64,000 nucleotides of DNA from assembly GCA_903821995.1 (NCBI GenBank), contig CAIJNI010000039.1, positions 1 to 64,000 on the forward strand, in the 5' to 3' direction. The notes under the pieces are model-generated. The model was not told the origin of the DNA. It was given only the letters and a program-made list of their open reading frames with translations, and searched no databases. The DNA comes from an uncultured beta proteobacterium. GTDB lineage: Bacteria > Pseudomonadota > Gammaproteobacteria > Burkholderiales > Burkholderiaceae. Both the position numbers and the translations under genes were made by a program. Below, piece after piece: positions 8,261 through 45,031 of the stretch. How positions within the stretch are numbered: the first letter of the stretch is position 1; every line of letters begins with the position of its first letter.

Positions 8261-9505
8261 ATGGAGAAGTGGTTCGGAGCAGCAAGGGCGCTGGATAACG
8301 CTTTGCTGCCAATGTTGACTAATAAAAATAACTCTAACTTATCCTTACTCCCTAGAATGCCTCGCGCTGTTTTAGCTTTATCAAATGGCATGGTCTTTAG
8401 AGGATTTGGGATAGGCGCCCAAGGCCATACGACTGGTGAGGTTGTTTTTAACACCTCAATGACTGGATATCAAGAGATCATTACTGATCCAAGTTATACC
8501 AATCAACTTGTTACTTTGACCTACCCACATATTGGTAATGTAGGCATTAATTCTCAAGACTCTGAGTCTGAAAAAATTCATGCAGCAGGACTAATTATTA
8601 AAGATCTTTCAATGATTACGTCAAATTTTCGCTCTGAGCAGTCACTTTCGGAATTTTTGATTTCCCAAGGTGTTGTTGGCATTTCTGGAATAGATACGCG
8701 TTACTTGACGCGCTATCTTAGGGATGAAGGGGCTCAGTCAGGATCGATTGTTACTGGGTCTGCCATTTCTACCTATGAGGAACTAGAACAGCAAGCAATA
8801 GAAAGAGCTAGGCAATTTCCGGGTATGTCAGGAATGGATCTGGCAAAAGTAGTCTCCATCCAAAGTAAGTACGAATGGGATGAGGGCGAATGGCAGCTTT
8901 GCGACCCAAAGACAGGTTTACCTGGATTTACAAAGGCAATTCCTTTATCACATGTGGTTGCTTATGATTTTGGCGTAAAAAGAAATATTTTGCGTATGCT
9001 TTCTCAAAGGGGTTGTCGTGTCACTGTTGTTCCAGCCCAAACCTCAGCCCAGGAAGTTCTTGCGATGAAGCCTGATGGGGTTTTTCTTTCGAATGGTCCA
9101 GGAGACCCTGAGCCTTGTGATTATGCAATTTCCGCAACCAAGATATTTTTAGAAAAATCGATTCCCTTATTTGGGATTTGTTTAGGCCATCAAATTATGG
9201 GTCTTGCATCTGGCGCTAAGACTTTAAAAATGAAATTTGGCCATCATGGTGCTAATCATCCTGTTAAAGATTTAGATTCTGGAAAAGTTTTAATTACATC
9301 CCAAAATCATGGTTTCGCGGTCGATATCAACACATTACCTCAGAACGTCAGAATCAGTCATGTTTCACTTTTTGATGGTTCTTTACAAGGCTTACAGTGG
9401 CTCGATAAGCCTGCATTTTGTTTTCAAGGCCATCCAGAAGCTTCACCTGGACCTCAGGATGTGGCTTATTTATTTGACCGTTTTATTAAGTTGATGCGAG
9501 ATTGA
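8261..9505 (+). CDS. carA: Carbamoyl-phosphate synthase small subunit (glutaminase)
   Basis: CarA hydrolyses glutamine and passes ammonia to CarB to make carbamoyl phosphate for pyrimidines and arginine. The 414-residue frame contains the class I amidotransferase triad: the nucleophile Cys in [10 protein letters not shown] (about residue 307) and His/Glu in [10 protein letters not shown]. The N-terminal domain begins with the family core [15 protein letters not shown] at residue 34. The ATG at 8261 has a good ribosome-binding site (GGGAG, 6-base spacing) but adds about 30 residues not usual for CarA. The alternatives at 8312 and 8357 lack clear sites. carB follows after 1 base. Confidence 0.95.
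8279..8309 (+). promoter_or_regulatory. Strong hairpin at the start of carA mRNA
   Basis: GCAGCAAGGgCG pairs with CGCTTTGCTGC around the loop ctggataa. This gives an 11-pair stem with one bulged G and one G-T wobble. It lies inside the first codons of the longest carA frame and ends 2 bases before the in-frame ATG at 8312. It could act as a translational control element or attenuator. I recognise no known riboswitch family. Confidence 0.4.
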
Positions 9506-9506
9506 A

Positions 9507-12500
9507 ATGCCTAAACGGACAGACATAAAGAGTATTTTGATTATTGGCGCAGGGCCTATTATTATCGGTCAAGCCTGTGAATTTGATTATTCAGGTGCCC
9601 AGGCTTGTAAAGCACTGAGATCTGAGGGATATCGGATCATCTTGGTCAATAGTAATCCTGCCACGATCATGACTGATCCTGATATGGCTGATGTAACTTA
9701 CATTGAGCCAATTACTTGGGAAGTGCTTGAAAGAATTATTTCGAAAGAGCGCCCGGATGCTATTTTGCCAACAATGGGAGGCCAGACTGCCTTAAATTGT
9801 GCATTAGATTTGCACCGTAATGGCATTCTGACTAAGTATGAATGTGAATTAATCGGAGCATCCCCTGAGGCAATTGATAAGGCAGAAGACCGGCATAAAT
9901 TTAAAGAAGCGATGACCAAAATTAATTTGGGATCTGCTAAATCAGGAATTGCCCATTCTTGGGATGAGGCTCAACAAGTTCAACAAAAAATTGCCATTGA
10001 GGCGGAGTCGAGTGGTTTTCCAATCGTGATTCGTCCTTCTTTCACCATGGGTGGATCTGGTGGTGGTATTGCATATAACGTAGAAGAGTTCGAAGAAATC
10101 TGTAAGCGTGGCCTTGATATGTCACCAACGCATGAACTGTTGATTGAAGAGTCTTTGCTGGGTTGGAAAGAGTATGAAATGGAGGTTGTAAGAGACCGTC
10201 ATGACAATTGCATTATTGTTTGCTCAATTGAAAATTTAGACCCCATGGGTGTTCATACCGGCGATTCAATTACGGTAGCGCCAGCGCAAACGCTCACAGA
10301 CCGTGAATATCAAATTATGCGGAACGCCTCTTTAGCCGTTCTTCGCGAGATTGGTGTTGATACAGGTGGATCTAATGTCCAGTTTGCAATTAATCCAGTA
10401 GATGGTCGCATGATTGTGATTGAAATGAATCCACGTGTTTCTAGATCATCTGCATTAGCTTCTAAAGCAACAGGATTTCCCATTGCAAAGATAGCAGCTA
10501 AGCTAGCGGTGGGTTTTACCCTTGATGAATTACAAAATGAAATAACAGGAGGAGCAACACCTGCTTCATTTGAGCCCAGTATTGACTATGTTGTAACTAA
10601 GGTTCCTCGCTTTGCTTTTGAGAAATTCCCTGAGGCTGACAAGCACTTAACGACTCAAATGAAATCAGTTGGTGAGGTGATGGCGATTGGGCGCACTTTC
10701 CAAGAGTCATTTCAGAAAGCTCTAAGGGGGCTTGAAGTGGGCGTTGATGGCTTAGATGAAAAATCGACAGATCTAGATGAAATTATTGCTGAAATTAAAG
10801 CTCCTGGACCCGATAGGATCTGGTTTGTTGGAGACGCATTTAGACAAGGGTTAACAGTTGAAGAAGTTTTTAAACATACCGCGATAGATCGTTGGTTTCT
10901 AGTGCAAATTGAAGAAATTATTCATATTGAAGGCATTTTAAAACAACGTACTTTAAGTGATCTTGAAGAAACTGAATTAAGAATATTAAAACAAAAAGGT
11001 TTTTCGGATAGAAGGCTTGCGACGCTTCTTAACGTTAAACCAAAAGAAGTTCGTGAGATGCGCCATGAGTTAAAAATTCATCCTGTTTATAAGCGTGTTG
11101 ATACGTGTGCCGGTGAGTTTTCTACAAATACTGCTTATATGTATTCAAGCTATGAGAGTGCAACTAGCCAATGCGAAGCTAACCCAACGCAGGGTAAGAA
11201 GGTCATTGTTCTTGGTGGTGGTCCTAATCGAATTGGTCAAGGGATTGAATTTGATTACTGCTGTGTTCATGCTGCTTTGGCATTACGTGAAGATGGTTAT
11301 GAAACCATCATGGTGAATTGCAATCCAGAAACTGTTTCAACCGACTTTGACACTTCAGATCGTTTGTATTTTGAGCCTTTAACTTTAGAAGATGTTTTAG
11401 AAATAGTCAGAATTGAAAAACCTTTTGGGGTCATTGTTCAGTATGGAGGTCAAACTCCTTTGAAATTAGCCTTAGATCTTGAGGCCAATGGCGTGCCTAT
11501 TATTGGTACTTCGCCAGACATGATTGATGCGGCTGAAGATCGTGAAAGATTTCAGAAATTACTTTTTGAGTTAAAGCTCAGGCAACCCCCAAATAGGACT
11601 GCCCGCACTGAACCTGAAGCGTTAGTTTTAGCGGATGAAATTGGCTATCCATTGGTCGTTAGGCCATCCTATGTTCTTGGCGGTCGGGCGATGGAAATCG
11701 TGAACGACAGTCGCGACTTAGAAAGATATATGCGTGAAGCTGTCAAGGTGTCTCATGACTCTCCCGTCCTGTTAGATCGTTTTTTGAATGAGGCCATTGA
11801 ATGTGATGTTGATTGTATTTCTGATGGCACTCGCGTCTTTATTGGTGGCGTAATGGAGCATATTGAGCAAGCTGGAGTTCACTCAGGTGATTCAGCATGT
11901 TCCTTGCCACCGTATTCTTTATCACAAGCTACGATTGAAGAATTACGTCGTCAAACTGCAGCTATGGCCAAAGGTTTAAATGTTATAGGTCTCATGAATG
12001 TGCAATTTGCGATTCAGCATATTAACGGTCAGGATGTCGTATTTGTTTTAGAAGTTAACCCAAGAGCATCAAGGACAGTTCCTTATGTATCCAAAGCGAC
12101 TGGCCTACAACTAGCTAAAATTGCTGCTCGGTGTATGGTTGGCCAATCCTTAGACGAACAAAAAATTGGTAAAGAAGTGATACCGCCGTATTTTTCAGTT
12201 AAAGAAGCTGTATTCCCATTTAATAAATTTCCTGGCGTTGATCCAATTCTTGGGCCAGAAATGAGATCAACGGGTGAGGTGATGGGAGTTGGTCGAACTT
12301 TTGGAGAAGCTCTATTTAAATCCCAATTAGCAGCAAGTACTATTCTTCCAGAGAGTGGAACGGTACTTTTGTCAGTTAAAAATAGTGATAAAGACCGCGC
12401 CGTAGAAGTTGCCATTATTCTTCATAGTATGGGGTACCCAATTGTTGCTACTAAGGGGACTGCATTAGCCATTGCTGCTGCTGGCATACCTGTCAAGACT

Positions 12501-13755: not shown

Positions 13756-14265
13756 TTAGCCTAATTGGCGTTTCTTAACACTTTTCTTCCGGGGTTTAGC
13801 TCGCTTAACTTGACCTCCTGCAGCCACACGCTCATTTCCCAAGAGTCTTGTTGCAACTGGTTTCGGACGTTTTTGAGGATTACGCGTAAACTTTTTAACA
13901 AAGACAGTTTTGGGTGCGCCAAAACTGTCTGCTTTGGATTTCTTGTGTGGAGATTTCTTAAGAGGAATGATTTCTCGTTCAGTTGTGCTGTTGTCTTGCC
14001 TGTAAAGAACTAAAAGTTTGCCGATATGTTGAACTGGTGCTGCATTGAGTTTTTCGCAAAGTTCCTCATAGATGGCAATGCGAGCTTCACGATCATCGCC
14101 AAAAACACGTATTTTGATCAAATGGTGGGTATTAAGAGCAAGGTCAGCTTCTTTAAGAACACCAGGTGTTAGGCCATCTCCTCCTATCATGACGATAGGA
14201 TTTAATGCATGTGCTTCAGAGCGAAGAGTGGCGCGAGCGATAGAATCAATGTGTAGTGTTGTCAT
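13756..14265 (-). CDS. yhbY: YhbY-type CRM-domain RNA-binding protein
   Basis: The first about 95 residues form a CRM domain: RATLRSEAHALNPIVMIG, the GLTPGVLKEADLAL segment, and IKIRVFGDDREARIAIYEEL, ending with HIGKLLVLYR. YhbY proteins bind 23S rRNA precursor and pre-50S particles. This one is 169 residues, longer than the roughly 97-residue E. coli protein, because of a basic tail rich in Lys/Arg (ending RAKPRKKSVKKRQLG). The tail probably adds nonspecific RNA affinity. It is divergent from rlmE, itself an rRNA-modifying gene. Confidence 0.9.
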   Translation of the reverse strand: MTTLHIDSIARATLRSEAHALNPIVMIGGDGLTPGVLKEADLALNTHHLIKIRVFGDDREARIAIYEELCEKLNAAPVQHIGKLLVLYRQDNSTTEREIIPLKKSPHKKSKADSFGAPKTVFVKKFTRNPQKRPKPVATRLLGNERVAAGGQVKRAKPRKKSVKKRQLG

Positions 14266-14320
14266 AACGATATTATGACTGACTTAGAATCATATGGAAA
14301 TGCTTTAATAAGGTATAAGA

Positions 14321-14992
14321 GTGGCAAAAAATAAATTTAATAAAGATTGGTTACAGGATCATCTTTCTGATCCCTATGTAAAAAGGGCTCAGAGGGAGGG
14401 GTTTCGTGCGCGCGCAGCTTATAAGTTACTAGAAATTGATGAACAAGATCATCTCATACGACCGGGTATGGTCATCGTTGACCTAGGGAGTGCTCCTGGT
14501 AGTTGGTGTCAATATGCTCGGCAAAGGCTGATTGAGCTTGAAAAAAAGCAAGGAATACATACTGAGGGCAGGCTGAGTGGGACTATTGTTGCGATTGATA
14601 TGTTGCCGATGGAGCCGGTTCAGGATGTCCATTTCTTAATAGGTGACTTTAGAGAAGATCAGGTTTTACTAGAATTTGAAAAGTTACTTCCAGGGACAAA
14701 TTCAGAAGGTAATCGGGTTGACTTGGTTCTTTCGGACATGGCTCCCAATCTTTCTGGAGTATCAACGGCAGATTCTGCAAGGATGGGTCATTTGGCAGAA
14801 CTTGCCCTGGATTTTTCCGTTAAACATTTAAAAAAAGATGGTGCGCTTTTAATTAAATGTTTTCACGGAAGTGGTTATAGCCAAATTGTGGAGTCCTTTA
14901 AGAAGGTTTTTAAGCAGGTTACGCCACGTAAGCCCAAAGCATCTAGAGATCGATCATCAGAAACCTTTCTTTTGGGAAGATTTCTTAAATAA
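14321..14992 (+). CDS. rlmE: 23S rRNA (uridine-2552) 2'-O-methyltransferase
   Basis: The 223-residue RrmJ/FtsJ enzyme methylates U2552 in the 23S A-loop. It shows the N-terminal basic segment [24 protein letters not shown] with the first catalytic Lys. The SAM-binding motif is [12 protein letters not shown], the catalytic Asp is in [12 protein letters not shown], and the later Lys and Glu are in [10 protein letters not shown] and SSETFLLGR. This gives the KDKE tetrad. The start is GTG, chosen because it gives the family N-terminus. It lies upstream of ftsH, as in E. coli. Confidence 0.96.
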
Positions 14993-15154
14993 ACCAATAC
15001 AAAAGTAATAGATTATCGCAAGTTCCTGTTTTAAATAATAAAAACAATTTTTTTTCTAAAAGTTATATAATTTATTTAATGTCAGCACTTGAAAATAGTG
15101 ATTTATAGAATTACTTACTAAGATATATCCGAATAAATCGGAACTGGAGTTATT

Positions 15155-17038
15155 TTGAATAATCAGATGATGCAAAAAGTAGGTGTGTGGTTAATCGTCG
15201 CACTTGTTTTATTTACTGTTTTTAAACAGTTTGATAAGCCACGTTTTCAAGATCAAGTGACTTATTCCCAGTTCATGGAAGATGCTAAAAACGGTAAAGT
15301 CCGTCGCGTCGATGTTCAAGGCAGAATGCTTCAAGTGACCAATGGTGATGGAAACAAGTACAGTATCATTTCTCCAGGCGATATTTGGATGGTTGGAGAT
15401 TTGATGAAATATGGTGTTCAGGTCACTGGTAAAGCAGATGATGAGCCCAACTTATTTGTATCAGCTTTGTACTATCTTGGTCCAACATTGCTAATCATTG
15501 GATTTTGGTTCTTTATGATGCGTCAGATGCAAGGCGGCGGTAAAGGCGGTGCTTTTTCCTTTGGAAAATCTCGTGCACGACTTGTCGATGAGAATAACAA
15601 TCAGATTAACTTTACTGATGTGGCTGGATGTGACGAAGCCAAAGAGGAAGTTTCTGAGCTAGTCGACTTTTTAAAAGATCCACAAAAGTTTCAAAATTTA
15701 GGTGGCCGTATTCCACGAGGTGTTTTACTTGTTGGGCCTCCTGGAACTGGTAAAACTCTTTTGGCCAGGGCTATTGCTGGAGAAGCTAAAGTACCTTTCT
15801 TTGCAATCTCTGGATCTGATTTTGTTGAAATGTTTGTCGGTGTTGGTGCAGCACGGGTCCGTGATATGTTTGAAAACGCCAAGAAAAATGCGCCTTGTAT
15901 TGTATTTATTGATGAGATTGATGCTGTTGGCCGCCACCGCGGTGCGGGTATGGGTGGTGGTAATGATGAGCGTGAGCAGACTCTTAACCAAATGCTTGTG
16001 GAGATGGATGGTTTTGAACCCAATAGCGGTGTGATTGTTATTGCAGCAACTAATCGTTCAGATGTTCTTGATAAAGCTTTATTGCGTCCAGGTCGTTTTG
16101 ATCGGCAGGTACATGTAGGATTACCTGATATTCGTGGGCGTGAGCAAATTCTTAAAGTTCATATGCGCAAGGTTCCGCTGAGTCCTGATGTTGATGCAGC
16201 TGTTTTAGCGAGAGGGACACCTGGATTTTCAGGAGCAGATTTAGCAAATTTAGTGAATGAAGCTGCCTTATTTGCTGCACGACGATCCAAGCGTTCTGTC
16301 GATATGATGGACTTTGAAGACGCAAAAGATAAAATATATATGGGGCCTGAGCGCAAGTCTGCTGTGATGAGAGAAGACGAGCGTCGTAACACGGCTTACC
16401 ATGAGTCCGGACATGCCGTAGTTGCAAAATTGTTACCGAAGGCAGATCCTGTGCATAAGGTAACAATCATGCCTCGTGGTATGGCCTTAGGGGTCACTTG
16501 GCAACTGCCAGAGTTTGATCGCGTCAATCTGTATAAAGATCGTATGTTGGAAGATTTAGCAATTCTATTTGGTGGTCGTGCTGCAGAAGAAGTATTTTTG
16601 AACTCAATGAGTACTGGAGCTTCAAATGACTTTGAGCGAGCGACTAAAATGGCTCGCGATATGGTGACACGCTACGGAATGAGTGAGTCCTTGGGTACGA
16701 TGGTTTACGTTGATACCGAGTCTGAAAGTGTTTTTGGACGAGTTAATTCAAAGACTGTTTCAGAAGCTACGCAACAAAAGGTTGATGCTGAAATACGTTC
16801 CTTAGTTGATAACCAATATGCTATGGCAAGGTCATTGCTCCAGCAAAACCGTGACAAAGTAGAGAGTATGGTTGCAGCGCTTTTGGAGTGGGAAACTATT
16901 GATGCTGATCAAGTCAATGACATCATGTCAGGCAAACCCCCGAGATTACCGAAAGTTTCTGATTCAATTATTGGACCTACGGGCGGTGATGGTGGCGGTG
17001 CTGTTCCTGCACAAGGTAATGCCCCTGCAACAGCTTAA
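15155..17038 (+). CDS. ftsH: ATP-dependent zinc metalloprotease FtsH
   Basis: This 627-residue membrane AAA+ protease degrades misfolded membrane proteins and regulators. It has a transmembrane segment at about residues 9-25, a periplasmic domain, and a second transmembrane helix at about 103-122. The AAA module has Walker A GPPGTGKT (about 194-201), Walker [11 protein letters not shown] and the RPGRFDRQ second region of homology. The zinc motif is HESGH (about 416-420). The start is TTG with a GGAG site 5 bases upstream; this gives MNNQMMQK, which matches the family N-terminus. The folP ATG overlaps its stop by one base. Confidence 0.98.
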
Positions 17039-43659: not shown

Positions 43660-43783
43660 TTGTGATTGAAGTCATCCAACTTACAATACAGTTGTGGTTC
43701 TATAAAATTGTGTAGTATGGAGATGAGGACATCTGAATCGACTATAGTTGTCAGAACAACAAAAATTAATTGAGGAGAAATTT

Positions 43784-45031
43784 ATGGTGAGACTTGCTGA
43801 TTTATCTTTAGGGGAACAAAAGCTTCACCTAGATAGGATTGCGACTTTGCCAAATTTTCCGGATCCAGTTTTAACGCCTTGTAAGCCATTGAACCAAATG
43901 CGGATAGCTTTGATTACAACAGCAGGAATACATACGCAACAGGACCAAGCTTTTGATACGATGGGTTCAGGTATGGATTACAGAGTTATACCTGTTGATA
44001 CTGAAGAAAAAGATTATGTCATGAGTCATTTGTCAGTGAACTTTGATAGAACTGGTTTTCAATCGGATACAAATGTAGTTTTTCCTTTGCAACGATTAAA
44101 AGAGTTAGTCAAAGATTCTGTTATTGGATCGTTGGCAAAGTTTCACTATTCCTTTATGGGGGCGATAGCACCTGTGACTCGCTATGAAGCAAAAGTTAAA
44201 GAATTGGCTAACTTACTGAAGCAAGATCAGGTAGACGCGGTCATACTTACCCCAGTATGACCATTATGCACTTGCGCCGTGAGCGCAATCGGCATGTACC
44301 TTGAAGAACAAGGGATATCAACTGTATCAATTAGTTTAATTCGTGAGCATACTGTTGCACTTAAAGCACCGAGAGCACTATGGGTGCCATTTATTCTAGG
44401 TAGACCTCTTGGAGCTCCTAATCGGCCTGATTTTCAGAGAAAAGTTTTATTAGAAGCTTTAGAGTTGTTACAAGAGACGCAGTGGCCTGTCTTAAAGGAT
44501 TTTACTGAAGAAGCTCCCCAGGATGAGCTCGGGTTTTATACTGAGGCTCTTGTTTGCCCAGTTAGTTTTCCAGGTAAAACGCTTGAAGGTTCCCTCCAAA
44601 ATCGGCTACACAACGAGATTTTGCAATTAAAGGCTTGGTATTCATTGGCAGTTCAAGTCAAGGGTAGAACTACGACGGGCATTACGGGGTCTTCTGCTGA
44701 GGAACTAGGAAAATTCATTGCCTCATGGACAACCAATCAAGAGCAACAAAAATTAAATAATTTAGATGACTTGCCAGCGGCTACTTTAAAGTTGGCCACT
44801 GATGAGCTTAAGGCTTTTTATTACGAAGCTAAATCTGTGCAACCTGGAAAACATTCATTTGTCAGTATTGGGGATTGGTTTTGGTTTGAGACGACTGCAG
44901 GTGAAGTATTTTTAGCGATTAAAGATAAAGTATCTCAGCTTGATGATCCAACATTTAAAGGGTTAGCAACCACAAGTCTTGTGCCAAGAGTTATTCAGCA
45001 ACGAGTGGCAGAAAGGTCAGCAAAAACTTAA
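43784..45031 (+). CDS. GrdB-like selenoprotein (glycine/sarcosine/betaine reductase selenoprotein B family), UGA read as Sec159
   Basis: One frame runs from an ATG with a strong ribosome-binding site (GAGGAG) to a TAA at 45031, interrupted only by TGA at 44258-44260. The product is 415 residues with selenocysteine at 159, in the context AVILTPV-U-PLCTC, a UxxC redox motif. Upstream and downstream parts both match the GrdB/PrdB-like family: MRIALITTAGIHTQQDQAF and DYRVIP before it, MYLEEQGISTVSISL and LWVPFILGRPLGAP after it. The second part has no start or ribosome-binding site of its own. A SECIS-like hairpin follows the TGA. Clostridial GrdB reduces glycine or betaine; the role in an aerobic betaproteobacterium is unknown. 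selA/B/C are not in the window. Confidence 0.8.
44272..44288 (+). promoter_or_regulatory. Bacterial SECIS-like hairpin downstream of the in-frame TGA
   Basis: TTGCGC-CGTGA-GCGCAA is a perfect 6-bp stem with a 5-base loop that has G at its second position. The loop begins 17 bases after the TGA. These values fall in the range described for bacterial SelB-binding elements (apical loop about 16-37 bases from UGA, small loop with an early G). Confidence 0.7.

Follow-up and report, generated by a model that had tools for sequence, protein, structure and literature searches.

The window analysed here, a 64,000-nucleotide stretch of DNA from an uncultured beta proteobacterium (assembly GCA_903821995.1, contig CAIJNI010000039.1, positions 1 to 64,000), carries a gene, P0001 (43784..45031, + strand), which almost certainly encodes a selenoprotein of 415 residues, with the UGA at 44258 read as selenocysteine (Sec); the comparative evidence for this is very strong. 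Within the PrdB/GrdB superfamily the protein very probably belongs to a separate, stand-alone branch, in which a PrdB-like Sec domain is joined to a C-terminal helical domain and which is made without PrdA/GrdE and GrdA. Judged by its sequence features it is not a canonical GrdB and not a D-proline reductase. We put the probability of this explanation as a whole at roughly 0.85. The host, a freshwater bacterium, is probably a member of the genus Polynucleobacter, as inferred from the nearest named relative, Polynucleobacter rarus at about 80% identity.

One reading frame on both sides of an in-frame TGA

The frame at 43784-45031 comprises 416 codons and has a single internal stop, the TGA at 44258..44260 (+ strand), which corresponds to residue 159 and opens a U-P-x-C-T-C motif; the TAA at 45029-45031 ends it. 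An earlier note on this DNA, made from the letters alone, had described one long frame whose only break is this TGA, and the sequence bears it out. A Shine-Dalgarno-like GAGGAG (43772..43777, + strand) lies upstream of the ATG at 43784, and one of five Shine-Dalgarno-like tetramers was found no more than 15 nt from the start in 74 of the 78 relatives that match from residue 1, a count that has no shuffled control. The note had also held that GrdB-like homology continues past the TGA, and homologues do align across it, with the Pfam model GRDB matching the first half (2.4e-14). Its statement that the downstream half has no start did not hold: GTG 44279, 18 bases downstream, is the first start codon after the TGA, though it overlaps the hairpin described below and its position reads GTC or GTT in 25 of 80 relatives.

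When the gene is compared with four relatives at 77-80% identity and one at 60%, third codon positions carry most of the differences on both sides of the TGA. Only codon-position counts were used and no ratio of nonsynonymous to synonymous substitution rates (dN/dS) is claimed, because in nearly every pair dS was either saturated or impossible to compute. By these counts, both halves of the gene are under constraint at the protein level. Automatic annotation may split genes of this kind, even if one prdB that contains such a TGA has been annotated unsplit.

The TGA is conserved throughout the family

A scan of genome contigs with the single protein found no relative; a profile scan of GTDB species genomes then succeeded and found 453, of which the best 80 were kept for alignment. 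These 80 are mostly betaproteobacterial metagenome-assembled genomes, with the isolates P. rarus MT-CBb6A5 and Zwartia hollandica LF4-65 among them and a few records labelled Rhodospirillaceae, Desulfobacteraceae or Chloroflexi. In the host's order, 21 of 399 genomes match at E <= 1e-30, at 25 places, and the in-frame TGA is present in 25/25. Closer to the host, 23 of 61 genomes match (E <= 0.001), four with a full-length gene that carries the TGA (the window's own genome included) and 19 with shorter, stop-free paralogues. The TGA stands at residue 159 in all 26 aligned copies, which come from 22 Burkholderiales genomes, and at the Sec position in 81/81 alignments over the best 80 of the 453 relatives, P. 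rarus and Z. hollandica included. As the 26 copies and the 81 stretches have 17 in common they make up 90 distinct copies, which are not to be counted as independent events. No Cys form of the family was seen among these 90 (best 80 of 453 relatives plus the order and genus samples), and viral contigs scanned with the profile of alignment A1 (23 of the 26 copies; L044, L053 and L055 are left out, the latter two being partial) yielded no relative.

The P-x-C-T-C that follows the TGA is likewise kept in the 26 copies, with Cys162 replaced by Tyr in one and Cys164 by Arg in two. Cys162 (44267..44269, + strand), the likely resolving Cys of the UxxC, is thus Cys in 25 of 26 copies, the copy with Tyr being L040. 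Outside the motif S84, N86, D88, R89, R207, P208 and G210 are conserved. Extra stops in L044 and L018 fall at or past the ends of their own genes.

The alignment of homologues that the earlier note had proposed as a check has TGA at the Sec position throughout the family and Cys in distant paralogues. There are 25 of these stop-free proteins (301-317 residues), 19 from the same genus and six from other Pseudomonadota, with cores 25-32% identical, and all 25 align a Cys with residue 159 in the motif N-C-P-x-C-H. Ten of them were placed in a tree and form a separate group, and because of this the shorter Cys proteins are taken as paralogues and not as Cys orthologues. They share the core and, in part, the genus with the family, and a member from Roseomonas is annotated as a 'glycine/sarcosine/betaine reductase selenoprotein B family protein'; they differ in having Cys for Sec (C-P-x-C-H), in their length of about 310 residues, in their separate clade and in the hairpin, whose six pairs at fixed positions occur in 0/25.

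A SECIS-like hairpin follows the TGA

Downstream of the TGA lies a hairpin resembling a selenocysteine insertion sequence (SECIS) at 44272..44288 (+ strand), with a stem of 6 bp and a loop that has GT at positions 2-3. The strands TTGCGC (44272-44277) and GCGCAA (44283-44288) enclose the loop CGTGA (44278-44282); the hairpin starts 11 nt after the TGA and 17 bases separate the TGA from the loop, just as the earlier note had it. The SECIS of E. coli fdhF likewise has a GU in its loop.

Covariation and codon bias both mark this element. Over the 26 copies the six pairs are formed in 98.7% of cases (24 copies with all six, two with five), three of the six pairs have changed on both sides, and 0/500 shuffles attain the covariation score, while the number of pair types is unremarkable (162/500 shuffles). 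Codon 168 is GCA in 24 of the first 25 copies with Ala at this residue (L059, which has Gly, is left out of the count); with GCA making up 15% of Ala codons 3.9 would be expected, and 0/200,000 simulations reach the observed number. Within the window gene six pairs at the same spacing occur at 0/398 other codons, and, both strands counted, the whole window has five six-pair stems whose loop is xGTxx, the gene's own included.

The 80 relatives supply 70 distinct stretches, of which 56 have six pairs, two have five, 11 have four and one has three; the last has a 3-nt insertion and is read in a shifted register. Loop GT is invariant in the 26 copies and kept in 69/70 stretches, the remaining one being that in the shifted register. 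The second pair is UA in 47 stretches, UG in six, CG in three, GC in one and AU in one, and is unpaired in 12/70. In L157 and L159 the Cys164 codon has become Gly or Ser, the third base of codon 168 changes synonymously along with it, and the pair is kept. This third base is A in 47/70 stretches of the wider set and C in a four-pair lineage of 18 loci that share one pattern (L094-L108, L110, L115 and L145, with Z. hollandica as L096). Conservation of the hairpin across relatives is far beyond chance, and by this comparison the hairpin is under selection, with exceptions.

The four-pair lineage retains the TGA and the loop GT, with codon 168 as GCC, and may represent a natural, shortened SECIS variant.

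Selenocysteine machinery and selenium use

The earlier note had further proposed a search for selA, selB, selC and selD, and all four were found above curated cut-offs in the window's own genome (2.33 Mb in 93 contigs). They lie on contig C27, with selA at 564 bits (cut-off 268), selB at 455 (cut-off 242), selD at 435 (cut-off 125) and a tRNA-Sec with the anticodon TCA at 67 bits (gathering 47). Across the order SelB (E <= 1e-60) is present in 20/21 carriers of the family compared to 85/378 non-carriers (Fisher p = 1e-11, from an overlap counted by hand), and in the genus sample it is found in 4/37 genomes, two of which are carriers. With the hairpin 11 nt on as its guide, SelB would bring Sec-tRNA(Sec) to UGA 44258, and translation would proceed to the TAA at 45029. 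The genome's own match to the formate dehydrogenase alpha subunit (L176, G000:C8:7389-9470) is free of an in-frame stop, and Sec decoding is therefore not explained by a Sec-containing form of that enzyme.

The same contig (locus L172) has further features of selenium use. On its minus strand SelD, at 9874-11466, is encoded in a 530-residue frame with a fused N-terminal cyclic-nucleotide-binding domain (PF00027, residues 35-119), which suggests a regulated supply of selenophosphate. Between selD and selA lies mnmH (13808-14854), the gene for tRNA 2-selenouridine synthase, and selenium is therefore probably used in tRNA as well. Just upstream of selA, at 14932-15573, is a second likely selenoprotein gene, AhpD-like or peroxidase-related, whose single in-frame TGA belongs to a C-R-Y-U (CxxU) motif and is followed by a bulged hairpin with a GGTC loop; beyond the TGA there is a weak match to NF053654, 'YciW-related (seleno)protein' (1.9e-7, 31 bits against a cut-off of 310). 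In another genome, G038 (loci L064 and L112), the family gene at 9276-10520 lies about 2 kb from selAB (selB at 5397-7202 in L064), a linkage found only there among the 100 loci searched.

A PrdB-like domain joined to a helical C-terminal domain

The N-terminal part of the protein (residues 22-232; 43847..44479, + strand) is predicted to be a PrdB-like alpha/beta domain from TIGR04483, PF07355 and the structure model. TIGR04483 (PrdB) matches residues 22-232, across the TGA, with 124.4 bits, short of its cut-off of 300. PF07355 (GRDB) matches residues 29-156 with 53.8 bits (2.4e-14), above its gathering cut-off of 22, and the N-terminal part of GrdB is missing because only the last part of this profile, positions 216-345 of 347, is matched. 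The Grd-type models score 56.5 bits (TIGR01917, cut-off 602), 65.8 (NF040794, cut-off 800) and 63.6 (NF040795, cut-off 775), all below their cut-offs, and TIGR01918 (various_sel_PB) scores 62.3, just below 65.45. Each of the 23 proteins in A1 is matched by the PrdB and Grd-type models at E <= 1e-5; among the NCBIfam models PrdB scores highest in 23/23 (83.7-124.4 bits, the other 22 members at 83.7-122.6), none reaches 300, and the GrdB, GrdF and GrdH cut-offs are reached by 0/23. The assignment to the GrdB family in the earlier note thus stands in part: the gene product is a likely selenoprotein and passes PF07355, but with 124 bits for PrdB and 56-66 bits for the Grd-type models it is nearer to PrdB, and it falls below the curated cut-offs of these models.

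In a core-domain tree of 23 Sec proteins (the window and 22 loci), three PrdB, one canonical GrdB and 10 of 26 Cys paralogues, the Sec clade is split from the others with support 96/98, a result that carries a long-branch warning, most of all for the GrdB row. The motifs also differ, with U-P-x-C-T-C in the family compared to U/C-G-T-C-H in PrdB, U-G-T-C-T in GrdB and C-P-x-C-H in the paralogues. With PrdB (TIGR04483) the family shares the homologous core at residues 22-232, a Sec or Cys at the aligned position and the UxxC motif, and it is 31-36% identical to PrdB-type genes carried by plasmids of clostridia and enterococci; however, two annotated PrdB records have 237 and 241 residues, whereas the family protein has 415 and a helical C-terminal domain. 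With GrdB, GrdF and GrdH it has in common the Sec in UxxC and a score above the Pfam GRDB gathering level, but it is without the GrdB N-terminal part, and GrdA was not found in its own genome. A plasmid of Peptoclostridium acidaminophilum (L179, 3732-6669) has an annotated, unsplit prdB with a TGA and, as in the window, an EamA transporter upstream; the 11 annotated features shown do not include prdA, and this is possibly another stand-alone PrdB.

The C-terminal domain (residues 262-415; 44567..45028, + strand) is all-helical in the predicted model, with a mean predicted local distance difference test score (pLDDT) of 90.6, compared to a pLDDT of 86 and a predicted template modelling score of 0.86 for the whole protein. 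Matches of this domain to PDB structures by Foldseek were insignificant (none at E <= 0.001), as were those to Pfam (best E 0.021, in one member); the whole model gave no match to PDB structures at E <= 0.001, and the sequences in the PDB, searched with the profiles A1 and A3, yielded no match either. The modelled helical domain therefore has no convincing match to a known relative in Pfam or the PDB.

Partner subunits and gene neighbourhood

The glycine or betaine reductase role known for GrdB, which the earlier note had mentioned, is unsupported because the partner subunits were not found in 17/18 carriers. Partner families were searched in 18 of the 22 carrier genomes (G165, G246, G275 and G363 are left out). 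PF09338, the pyruvoyl partner of the PrdA/GrdE type, has no match in the window's own genome and 16/17 other carriers tested, and the same holds for GrdA (PF04723). The absence of PF09338 is meaningful because the model does find the true PrdA of E. gilvus. In one Burkholderiales genome, G326, a single contig (C148, locus L175) carries a canonical GrdA with TGA, a GrdB with TGA and a PF09338 protein, with two copies of the family elsewhere.

Genes for TctC-type receptors are present in 19/21 contexts (the window and 20 loci, of which three are shorter than 5 kb). These neighbours were taken, by judgement, as background and not as a functional clue, because TctC matches number at least 79 in each of 18 carriers. 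Besides this receptor, no neighbour in the window belongs to a cluster that recurs in at least four loci, with many short contigs among the loci and some antisense frames in the clusters.

Two known systems are worth comparing. FarB, a GrdB-like protein linked to fluoroacetate reduction, is relevant in that the fold has been proposed to serve a substrate other than an amino acid, but it is paired with FarE, a partner of the GrdE type, and acts under anoxic conditions; for fluoroacetate cleavage in Synergistota a GrdB-type pair that lacks pyruvoyl processing has been proposed (both PMC10838667). The surface-ocean 'Proline reductase PrdB' may include the family, as it has UxxC, is filed under PF07355 and is abundant in oxic surface water: 42 PrdB-type UxxC selenoproteins were reported from the Sargasso Sea (PMC1088965), and 235 Sec and 110 Cys proteins of this type from the Global Ocean Sampling data (PMC2398784). 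On the other side, the passages of these two surveys on PrdB do not describe a C-terminal domain, a lack of PrdA or freshwater betaproteobacterial carriers, a contrast drawn from description and not from sequence.

Weighing the alternatives

Several observations weigh against a stand-alone selenoprotein branch. One copy has Tyr for Cys162, and several have another residue for Cys164 when the 26 copies and the 80 relatives are taken together. One carrier, G178 (84% complete), is without SelB at E <= 1e-60. For its composition, the hairpin by itself has no more than mild stability (z = -1.3; 22/200 shuffles fold as well), and the case therefore rests on comparison, not on folding. Rfam gives no match at the hairpin, and 21/81 stretches have fewer than six pairs (18 keep the inner four, two have five and one is shifted). 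When any stem within 45 nt is allowed, at least six pairs form in 4/25 Cys paralogues and five or fewer in 20/81 family stretches. L042, one of the 23 members, passes the TIGR01918 cut-off (68.4 against 65.45), which places the family at the edge of that model. The window's own genome is a draft, 93% complete, only 18 of 22 carriers were tested for partners, and G326 has them. Finally, the gene neighbourhoods yield no functional hint.

The alternative that survives best accepts the selenoprotein but gives it a general role in thiol or peroxide redox chemistry, acting on protein disulfides, peroxides or methionine sulfoxide and not as a reductase of small organic substrates. The UxxC motif, the stand-alone gene and a carrier described as aerobic are all consistent with it, and the Sargasso Sea selenoproteome, as summarised in PMC1088965, consists mainly of thiol-dependent peroxidases and oxidoreductases. 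However, the sequence groups with PrdB/GrdB and not with thioredoxin-like proteins, and the many conserved residues outside the motif suggest a substrate pocket. We regard this role as unlikely, though still a serious contender.

Considerably less probable is that the protein serves an ordinary reductase of D-proline, glycine, sarcosine or betaine as catalytic subunit, its partner genes lying elsewhere. The match of PrdB and GrdB models to residues 22-232, the common UxxC motif, the passage of L042 over the broad TIGR01918 cut-off and the canonical GrdA, GrdB and PF09338 protein on another contig of G326 speak for this reading. Against this, PF09338 and PF04723 lack a match in 17/18 carriers tested, the motif is not U-G-T-C-H/T, there is an extra C-terminal domain and a separate clade, and none of the 23 members reaches the PrdB, GrdB, GrdF or GrdH cut-offs; in G326 itself the canonical GrdB exists beside the family protein.

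It is very improbable that the UGA ends translation to give a 158-residue product, with the second half starting separately at GTG 44279: this codon lies 18 bases past the TGA, but it is GTC or GTT in 25/80 relatives, the hairpin covaries, and the motif residues directly after the UGA are conserved ahead of any possible start. That the TGA is a nonsense mutation or sequencing error in a pseudogene has next to no chance of being right, since, formally broken frame and 93-contig draft notwithstanding, the same TGA recurs in 26/26 copies and 81/81 alignments, isolate genomes included, divergence is biased to third positions on both sides of it and the Sec machinery is present.

For the stand-alone selenoenzyme we can propose a mechanism, to which we give even odds. 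The selenolate of Sec159 would attack a polarised C-N, C-X or S/O centre of an electrophilic substrate, Cys162 would resolve the intermediate to a selenenylsulfide, and a cellular thiol system would re-reduce it. Polarisation of the C-N bond in PrdB/GrdB enzymes has been ascribed to a pyruvoyl group or another carbonyl (PMC10838667); because the pyruvoyl group is absent here, the substrate may be argued to be electrophilic already. The C-terminal domain could supply the substrate pocket or docking, the role of PrdA/GrdE in the clostridial enzymes.

Implications for the family and its hosts

An earlier report of the family was not found among the papers listed in searches of the open-access literature. 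Reviews from 2022 and 2026 list PrdB and GrdB, and their main texts do not mention Burkholderia or betaproteobacteria. In its treatment of Betaproteobacteria, a 2006 survey gave one selenoprotein family, formate dehydrogenase (PMC1794560), and the gene described here would add a selenoprotein family to that.

The earlier note had spoken of an apparently aerobic, betaproteobacterial host; the host is a betaproteobacterium, and Z. hollandica, a carrier species, is described as aerobic in a passage of PMC10535154. Surveys of the surface ocean count PrdB-type selenoproteins as some of the most abundant (PMC1088965, PMC2398784), yet what is known of proline reductase comes from the anaerobic fermentation of amino acids. 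We tentatively suggest that the family could be a new type of selenoenzyme, a single-chain, oxygen-tolerant, PrdB-derived reductase of oxic freshwater and marine bacteria in which the C-terminal helical domain replaces the pyruvoyl subunit, and that it may explain part of the ocean 'proline reductase' counts. The family is mostly without partners, has an extra domain of its own and carries the TGA in all copies examined, with one carrier species described as aerobic, and the role of such proteins in oxic water is therefore testable in cultured strains.
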